Shown one piece after another: positions 15,068 through 16,183 of a stretch of 40,463 nt of DNA. Location of the stretch: the IMG/VR virus record IMGVR_UViG_3300042518_001057, positions 1 to 40,463 of that record, one strand, 5' to 3'. The stretch's first letter is position 1. Every line of letters begins with the position of its first letter. The DNA is from a virus. Under the pieces are notes generated by a model, which was not told where the DNA came from, did no database searches, and saw only the letters and a program-made list of their open reading frames with translations. The position numbers and the translations under genes were made by a program.

Positions 15068-16183
15068 CTATCGGTTTGAAATCGAATCGAACGGCGGCTG
15101 CACCCAACCGCCGTGATCCAAAACGCGGAACTTGAAACCATCGACGCCAGCAATCGAAAAACTGTCGCCCTCGCGCAGCGCGCGGTCTGCATCTTCGAAT
15201 GAAATCCAGTAGCACCCGTCCGGCTGATCGGCTGGATTCTTGCCGCCGCCCTGCCAGGAACTGCCCCAGGAGTTGATAATCGCGATGCCGTCGCGCGGGT
15301 TGCGCATGCTGCCGTTTGCATTCTTCGCGTACCGCACGCCGATTGCGCATTGACAATGCGCCCATCCTTGCGGGGTACGCTTCGCGAATCCATCTTCGTC
15401 CCGCGTAGTGGAAAACGATAAACCGCAACAGATCACAACCGGAAAACCAGACTCCAAACTGGCGGCGCATTGTTCGACGTTTTCAATTAACGCGATGCCG
15501 CGGGCGCGGTGTTCGTTCGCGATCTTGTCCAGCCTGCCGCCGTCGTTTTGCCCGCCGCAGCCATACGCGCCCCAGGCTTTCGCGCGGGCCGGATCGTATT
15601 CCCGCAGATCGGTGCCGCCGCCGTAATCCTTGCGGTAGAGAATGCCGCCGGTTCCGTTTTTCAATCCGGCGCACCAGCGCGCCGCAGCGGCTCCATACGA
15701 TCCATCTGAATATCCGGCGAACGTCACGCCGCGGGATTCGCAGCGGCTTCCGCCGTACAGCGCTTCGGTCGCGATTAACAGCGGCGGTTCCGGCAATCGG
15801 CCCAGTGCATAATCCACCGATTGGCCGACATAACTCCCCATCCCCCAGCCGAAACTAATGCAATCACCAATGCCCTGTTTCCAAGGCCCAAACGGCTTTC
15901 CGTATACCTCGCGGTGCGCCTTCTCCGCGTAGCGCCACAAAAAGGCATCGCGGCCCTGCGCCTTCGCGACAACCTCCGCGCCAGCCTGCGCGAAACGCGG
16001 CTTATCCAGTTCCGCAAGAAATCGCCGCGTGGCTTCCGGGTTTGGCGTGTAGCCAAAATTATTGGCGCCGATGGTGCGCTCTAGGCCGCGCATCATCACG
16101 CCCGCCACGATTGCGCACGCGATGCAGCCAACGGCAGCGCCTACGATCAGCCAATCAATCTTGCCGTTATCGCGCCGCGTCAT
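15068..16183 (-). CDS. Membrane-anchored papain-like cysteine peptidase, candidate lysin
   Basis: This 371-residue protein has a membrane helix at residues 11-32 and then a C1-type peptidase domain. The active-site elements are in papain order: Gln103 and Cys108 in QGIGDCISFGWG, His276 in GWAHCQCA, and Asn304 in AIINSWGSSW. The YWISFEDA strand also follows, as in papains. Cys residues elsewhere (about 150-255) may form disulfides, which fits a domain outside the membrane. It is encoded with a two-helix membrane protein and signal-anchored small proteins. No conventional endolysin was recognised in this genome, so this may be the lytic enzyme, or else a tail-fibre or host-protein protease. The start at 16183 has GAGG upstream. 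Confidence 0.75.
   Translation of the reverse strand: MTRRDNGKIDWLIVGAAVGCIACAIVAGVMMRGLERTIGANNFGYTPNPEATRRFLAELDKPRFAQAGAEVVAKAQGRDAFLWRYAEKAHREVYGKPFGPWKQGIGDCISFGWGMGSYVGQSVDYALGRLPEPPLLIATEALYGGSRCESRGVTFAGYSDGSYGAAAARWCAGLKNGTGGILYRKDYGGGTDLREYDPARAKAWGAYGCGGQNDGGRLDKIANEHRARGIALIENVEQCAASLESGFPVVICCGLSFSTTRDEDGFAKRTPQGWAHCQCAIGVRYAKNANGSMRNPRDGIAIINSWGSSWQGGGKNPADQPDGCYWISFEDADRALREGDSFSIAGVDGFKFRVLDHGGWVQPPFDSISNR

Follow-up and report, generated by a model that had tools for sequence, protein, structure and literature searches.

Papain-like peptidases and phage lysis

The closest working analogues of the system considered here are PeiW and PeiP, the pseudomurein endoisopeptidases of methanogen phages: cysteine peptidases that lyse a wall made of something other than peptidoglycan (PMC4592898, PMC2989375). 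Endolysins of the NlpC/P60 and CHAP families belong to the papain-like superfamily as well, and act through cysteine-histidine catalysis (PMC10318531). In phages of Gram-negative bacteria, holin-endolysin-spanin cassettes are compact, combine small membrane proteins with one exported enzyme, and are exchanged between phages.

The load-bearing component of the planctomycete wall has been under dispute for decades, and we know of no described mechanism by which a phage lyses bacteria whose walls depend little on peptidoglycan. Planctomycete wall preparations contain cysteine-rich YTV proteins, and most Planctomycetales are without peptidoglycan genes (PMC8567305); PMC2754498 refers to a disulphide-bonded protein sacculus. 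In Planctopirus limnophila, the peptidoglycan synthesis genes are dispensable (PMC10632474). The sacculi of P. limnophila and Gemmata are sensitive to lysozyme and contain peptidoglycan (PMC4432640). The sole planctomycete phage met in our literature search was described as chronic (PMC10945688), and the same search turned up no publication describing a protease that serves planctomycete phages as lysin.

Here we analyse a virus record of 40,463 nucleotides (IMGVR_UViG_3300042518_001057; its whole length is called the window) in which a papain-like peptidase with a predicted membrane anchor lies within a compact group of small genes (Table 1). A sequence-only reading had proposed this peptidase as the lytic enzyme of a phage without a conventional endolysin, suited to a host with a protein-rich envelope such as some Planctomycetes. 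Our preferred reading, to which we give a probability of roughly 0.55, is that the peptidase acts as the lysin within a lysis cassette of temperate tailed phages of Planctomycetota.

Table 1. Features of the window, with coordinates, strand, and basis of assignment
Feature	Position	Strand	Basis
Papain-like cysteine peptidase, C1-type, membrane-anchored (predicted), 371 aa, P0001	15068..16183	-	translation, conservation, AF2, Foldseek/VIA
Predicted membrane helix, peptidase residues 11-39	16067..16153	-	DSSP on AF2 model; hydropathy
Oxyanion-hole Gln103 to catalytic Cys108 (QGIGDC)	15860..15877	-	invariant in 46 relatives
Catalytic His276	15356..15358	-	invariant in 46 relatives; profile alignment with cathepsin L His region
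Catalytic Asn304 (NSWG)	15272..15274	-	invariant across 40 phage sequences
Holin-like protein, 123 aa, 3 moderately hydrophobic segments	16864..17235	-	conservation in 72/83 contigs; hydropathy
Small single-membrane-segment protein, ~80 aa, spanin-like position (putative)	16625..16867	-	hydropathy; 4-bp overlap on each side
TM153, membrane-anchored helical protein (predicted), 153 aa	16167..16628	-	79/83 contigs; AF2
TM84, small membrane protein, 85 aa, C-terminal RHAEGW	14803..15060	-	71/83 contigs
Cysteine-cluster protein CxxCxGTG...CPCPxxCxCK, 109 aa	14473..14802	-	80/83 contigs
Fused prohead protease/major capsid, probable	33537..35372	-	PHROG 4523 'major head and protease protein', E 1.2e-61; Pfam; ORF assignment from size and position
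Tape measure protein	24902..27634	-	PHROG 1533, E 3.4e-57
Terminase large subunit, gpA type	38167..40374	-	PF20454; tblastn across relatives; ORF assignment inferred

The active site and fold of the peptidase

Translation from the ATG at 16183 down to 15068 on the minus strand gives 371 residues and a stop. The papain-type motifs recognised around Cys108, His276, and Asn304 in the sequence-only reading are borne out: the three residues show no variation in any of 20 aligned relatives. Across 46 relatives, Planctomycetota prophages included, Gln103, Cys108, and His276 never vary, and Asn304 varies little, with Gln in its place in two distant homologues. Among 145 distinct relatives, defined by a recognisable Gln...Cys motif, W-x-H occurs in all 145 and NSW[G/A] in 134. 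A membrane helix ahead of these motifs had also been claimed; it is predicted at residues 11-39, and a hydrophobic N-terminal segment is present in 134 of the 145. The spacing between Gln and Cys is five in most family members, and some have the papain-like NQGxxGSC spacing. The dN/dS ratio of about 0.12, measured against relatives of 84% identity, points to purifying selection; together with the conservation of the motifs, it excludes chance. With at least 576 matching stretches in IMG/VR, this is a large family of uncultivated phages, across which the active site is conserved.

Because the helix of the window peptidase holds cysteines, a disulphide-switched SAR endolysin (of which Lyz of phage P1 is an example) was considered. 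These cysteines are not conserved among relatives, and the idea was rejected.

The AF2 model, built on 40 aligned relatives, has a pLDDT of 89.9 and a pTM of 0.84. Residues 11-39 are helical and read as a membrane anchor; Cys108 opens a long helix (108-126), as in papain; and His276, at the start of a strand, and Asn304, just after one, are placed as in papain-like enzymes. The best Foldseek match in the PDB is xylellain (3ois; E 1.7e-9). VIA likewise ranks xylellain at the top (Z 22.6 over 236 residues), with cathepsins and papain next, and gives Z 17.9 for the S-layer-associated Cwp84. The family profile aligns through its His and Asn regions to cathepsin L, with weak E. These comparisons give the proposed papain-like peptidase a confidently predicted C1-type papain fold. 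Residues occur in the order required of papain family C1 (clan CA): Gln, then Cys, His, and Asn. Because of this set, the NSWG motif, and the structural match to cathepsins and xylellain, the modelled enzyme is assigned to the C1 type rather than to NlpC/P60, and presumably acts as a peptidase.

Sequence libraries do not reach this far. The family falls short of the Pfam Peptidase_C1 cut-off (PF00112; best member at E 0.042, and P0001 itself without a match), so it is C1-like by fold and active site but lies outside PF00112. Neither P0001 nor 46 family members matched CHAP (PF05257) at E up to 1; NLPC_P60 (PF00877) was found in none of 12 records, window included, in a search whose positive controls matched; and the family's only matches were weak, none of them to a Pfam family of pseudomurein endoisopeptidases. 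Searches of Pfam, PHROGs, PDB sequences, and INPHARED phages with the peptidase sequence gave no useful identification: the family was not found in the INPHARED collection, and carries no Pfam or PHROG name.

A conserved cassette

The peptidase gene is one of six tightly packed small genes on the minus strand, all for predicted exported or membrane proteins, several of which overlap by 4-17 bases. Their order is holin-like, ~80-aa membrane protein, TM153, peptidase, TM84, and cysteine-cluster protein. Of the 83 distinct contigs with enough flank around the peptidase, 72 keep the holin-like gene, 79 keep TM153, 71 keep TM84, and 80 keep the cysteine slot; 66 have all four, and the order never changes. 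(The ~80-aa membrane protein is given no frequency, because the profile built from it strayed into TM153.) The candidate holin and spanin-like neighbours seen from sequence are present, but no library calls them so: neither the holin-like protein nor its small membrane neighbours match a named holin or spanin family in Pfam or PHROGs. Two further adjacent genes (17232-17786 and 17738-18247, minus strand) both match PHROG 22694, probably as tandem paralogues, and one of them also matches a tail fibre weakly.

The last cassette gene, in the window and in most relatives, encodes a short protein with the pattern CxxCxGxG...GDGH...CPCPxxCxCK. In three Planctomycetota prophages (G133, G345, and G351), the cysteine slot is filled by exported thioredoxin-like proteins (WCPYC or WCPHC), that of G133 matching Pfam Thioredoxin_7 (E 1.3e-7). 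Two more Planctomycetota genomes, G401 (locus L274, 9124-9822) and G164 (L279, 9953-10759), have directly downstream of the peptidase homologue one lipoprotein that combines the cysteine cluster with a CGPC or WCPPC motif. Because thioredoxin-like proteins and motifs occupy this slot in prophages, a thiol-redox role for its protein may reasonably be inferred.

Independence from virion genes

Four relatives (G002, G005, G006, and G009) have both virion genes and the cassette in common with the window, as judged by tblastn. Five others (G003, G007, and the prophages G133, G345, and G351) have TM153 and the peptidase at 36-58% identity to the window, with no terminase, portal, capsid, or tape-measure homology detectable by tblastn. 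The same program also detects the holin-like gene and TM84 in G003 and G007; for the three prophages, profiles detect the holin-like gene and the gene of the cysteine slot. Position varies too: the cassette is upstream of terminase and portal in G133 and G351, and in the window it comes after the tail genes. Phages and Planctomycetota prophages whose virion genes are unrelated have the cassette in common, so it moves as a module of its own, independent of virion genes. Taken together, these observations favour an exchangeable module for host interaction or lysis.

All relatives of the window tail genes with enough downstream sequence have the peptidase. (One locus, L323, looked at first as if it had no cassette, but its peptidase is present further downstream.) Pfam matches among the window ORFs include an integrase and HTH proteins, a temperate gene set, and Peptidase_S78 and Phage_capsid_4, separate from the papain-like peptidase. 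A 21-bp terminal direct repeat, TGTGTTTTGCGTAGGCTCGCG, at 1-21 and 40443-40463, together with the full gene set, suggests that the record is a complete genome, circular or terminally redundant.

Several other genes of the window deserve mention. A 798-aa protein (20825-23221, minus strand), which begins with a hydrophobic segment near its N terminus and bears CxxC clusters, is only 37-41% identical to its near relatives, against 47-84% for neighbouring genes; this fast-changing protein is a candidate adhesin or tail-fibre. A small SprT-like metalloprotease with an HEWLH motif (20163-20441, minus strand) adjoins the tail genes and is kept in relatives. The 134 ORFs include a CsrA-family regulator (Pfam CsrA, E 1.2e-17; PHROG 9500). 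Finally, two conserved plus-strand frames (9478-10401 and 7944-9062), at most 87% identical to relatives, read as a divergent early region in a genome whose remainder is on the minus strand.

The search for a conventional endolysin

The absence of a conventional endolysin, asserted from sequence, holds at the sensitivity available. Among 25 of the 26 Pfam families listed for the 134 window ORFs at E 0.01, none is a peptidoglycan hydrolase, and no endolysin is among the PHROG matches listed for the main window genes (in one scan, the best 25 of 61 families). SLT, Phage_lysozyme, Amidase_2, Peptidase_M23, and NLPC_P60 were found in none of 12 records (the window and 11 related), whereas control genomes matched. 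For G003 and prophage G351, no peptidoglycan hydrolase is among the best 25 of 65 Pfam families, which excludes matches stronger than about 1e-7; for four more distant prophage loci, none is among the strong Pfam matches. (Pfam was run on pooled ORFs, and its matches apply to the pool as a whole.) A peptidoglycan hydrolase of a kind outside these libraries, TM153 for example, may have gone unrecognised.

Hosts and their walls

Peptidase homologues occur in 11 of 392 Planctomycetota genomes. Three of these homologues (G133, G345, and G351) have E below 1e-120 and the cassette around the peptidase; in G333, a 40%-identical terminase lies near a divergent peptidase copy. Matches in Rhodopirellula and Stieleria were discarded as 33-residue chance matches with no papain-like frame at those sites, and the Rhodopirellula genome has no peptidase homologue. 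Of the 392 genomes, 42 encode wall proteins with a YTV domain, and all 11 peptidase-positive genomes are among these 42. The overlap (hypergeometric 6e-12; 1e-7 with look-alike genomes collapsed to seven) is inflated and confounded by shared ancestry, as the two traits could be markers of a single clade. Fairly read, it says that, within this sample of 392 Planctomycetota genomes, the phages are confined to the clade with YTV walls.

Peptidoglycan genes divide these hosts. The mraY gene is above cut-off in seven of the 11 peptidase-positive genomes, each with a good murG-like match, and in 18 of 19 other Planctomycetota; four peptidase-positive genomes (G133, G345, G351, and G389) have neither mraY nor a full murG. 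Judged by these missing genes, G133, G345, and G351, which carry the closest cassettes, are probably unable to make ordinary peptidoglycan, and others probably able. The idea that the peptidase strictly accompanies loss of peptidoglycan is rejected, for seven of the 11 hosts retain the genes; the peptidase is therefore not confined to hosts without peptidoglycan synthesis. The suggested planctomycete host with a protein-rich envelope is supported insofar as related prophages lie in 11 YTV-positive genomes, the closest without mraY and murG, and is qualified by the seven with mraY. Across the YTV-positive set as a whole, 12 of the 42 genomes are without full-length murG: G001, G133, G179, G217, G286, G339, G345, G351, G365, G381, G389, and G393.

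Alternative functions

Could the peptidase be a true endolysin nonetheless? A papain-fold peptidoglycan endopeptidase that cuts cross-bridges, as NlpC/P60 and CHAP enzymes do, would share a papain-like fold with those endolysins (PMC10318531) and would find its substrate in several planctomycetes (PMC4432640) and, to judge by mraY, in seven of the 11 peptidase-positive hosts. We consider it unlikely: the structure matches C1 cathepsins and xylellain, the active site has NSWG and the Gln, Cys, His, and Asn of papain, NLPC_P60 goes unmatched, and the hosts of the closest prophages have neither mraY nor murG. Alternatively, TM153 might be the real endolysin, with the peptidase serving to activate or mature it. 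TM153 is the constant upstream partner, present in 79 of 83 contigs with a gene that overlaps the peptidase start by 17 bp; its helical AF2 model is confident (pLDDT 92.3), and its acidic residues D54 and D72 are invariant. That model has no fold match in the PDB, lysozyme-like or other, and the sequence has no match either, so that this is the least probable of the alternatives. (The TM153 homologue in prophage locus L274 is a lipoprotein, with a lipobox.)

Two further possibilities leave lysis to some other enzyme. An envelope-anchored protease might act on the surface of the lysogen or infected cell, against the host or in superinfection exclusion, while an unrecognised enzyme lyses. The modelled anchor and protease fold would suit such a role, as would the temperate gene set with its integrase and HTH proteins. 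It is nevertheless decidedly unlikely, given the constant linkage, in operon order, to a holin-like gene and small exported proteins; near-universal retention; positions typical of lysis cassettes, by the terminase or at the end of the late operon; and no alternative lysin in the Pfam scan or the five-family search. Or the peptidase might be associated with the virion or tail, for entry or maturation; it does lie downstream of the window tail genes, and tail-linked relatives always have it. A prohead or virion protease would be expected to go with one virion type and to be its sole maturation protease, and this peptidase does neither. Two findings lower the likelihood of the virion-processing role, raised as an alternative in the sequence-only reading: Peptidase_S78 is there as a separate prohead protease, and the cassette accompanies unrelated virion genes, upstream of the terminase in G133 and G351; a conserved, predicted membrane anchor would also be odd in a virion protein. 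We regard this role as highly improbable.

A proposed model of protease-based lysis

The preferred reading, the peptidase as the lysin of its cassette, gains from the papain fold and from a lysis-like cassette independent of virion genes, but is weakened by neighbours that match no named family. From the computed parts (gene, fold, active site, predicted anchor, cassette, virion independence, no recognisable peptidoglycan hydrolase, and prophages in YTV hosts) we infer a topology, a lysis role, a trigger, a substrate, and a redox role for the partner. The six cassette genes would be expressed late. The peptidase would be exported, and its N-terminal helix would hold it on the outer face of the inner membrane. 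The holin-like protein may time or trigger the event, whereupon the tethered peptidase would cleave proteins of the host envelope or wall. Its target is likely to be the layer of cysteine-rich, disulphide-bonded protein found in planctomycetes beside or instead of peptidoglycan. The cysteine-cluster or thioredoxin partner could reduce the disulphides of this layer, or keep the catalytic cysteine reduced.

In its fullest form, the proposal is of lysis that needs no peptidoglycan hydrolase and dismantles a disulphide-cross-linked protein wall, by a tethered papain-like protease and a dedicated exported thiol reductant, in many unrelated Planctomycetota phages and reaching hosts unable to make peptidoglycan. 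We put it forward tentatively, at somewhat less than even odds. If true, a large, conserved cassette whose lysin is a protease rather than an endolysin would offer a natural probe of the planctomycete load-bearing layer, and a bacterial counterpart to the pseudomurein endoisopeptidases that methanogen phages use. As a genomic marker, it would link many uncultivated viral contigs to hosts in Planctomycetota, and the peptidase would be an enzyme for gentle lysis of planctomycetes.

Comparison with known systems

With the MEROPS C1 enzymes (xylellain 3ois, the cathepsins, and Cwp84 of Clostridioides difficile), the peptidase has in common its fold, the Gln/Cys/His/Asn order, and NSWG; it differs in its predicted N-terminal membrane anchor, its phage cassette context, and the Gln-Cys spacing, mostly five. 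NlpC/P60 and CHAP endolysins share its superfamily and catalytic pair, but not its cathepsin-like NSWG architecture, and it has no NLPC_P60 match. The papain fold is found in other phage proteins, such as the BFVD Peptidase_C1 proteins of uncultured Caudoviricetes (e.g. A0A6J5LAR6); these are 12-15% identical to the peptidase, and a shared cassette is not known for them. Like the holin-endolysin-spanin cassettes of Gram-negative systems, the present one is compact and exchangeable, with small membrane proteins around one enzyme that is predicted to be exported. Here, however, the enzyme's place is taken by a papain-like peptidase, no peptidoglycan hydrolase is recognised, and an exported cysteine-cluster or thioredoxin gene is added. 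PeiW and PeiP remain the nearest parallel. Compared with them, the peptidase has no family match, a predicted membrane anchor, and a redox-type partner; its proposed substrate is protein, and its host bacterial.
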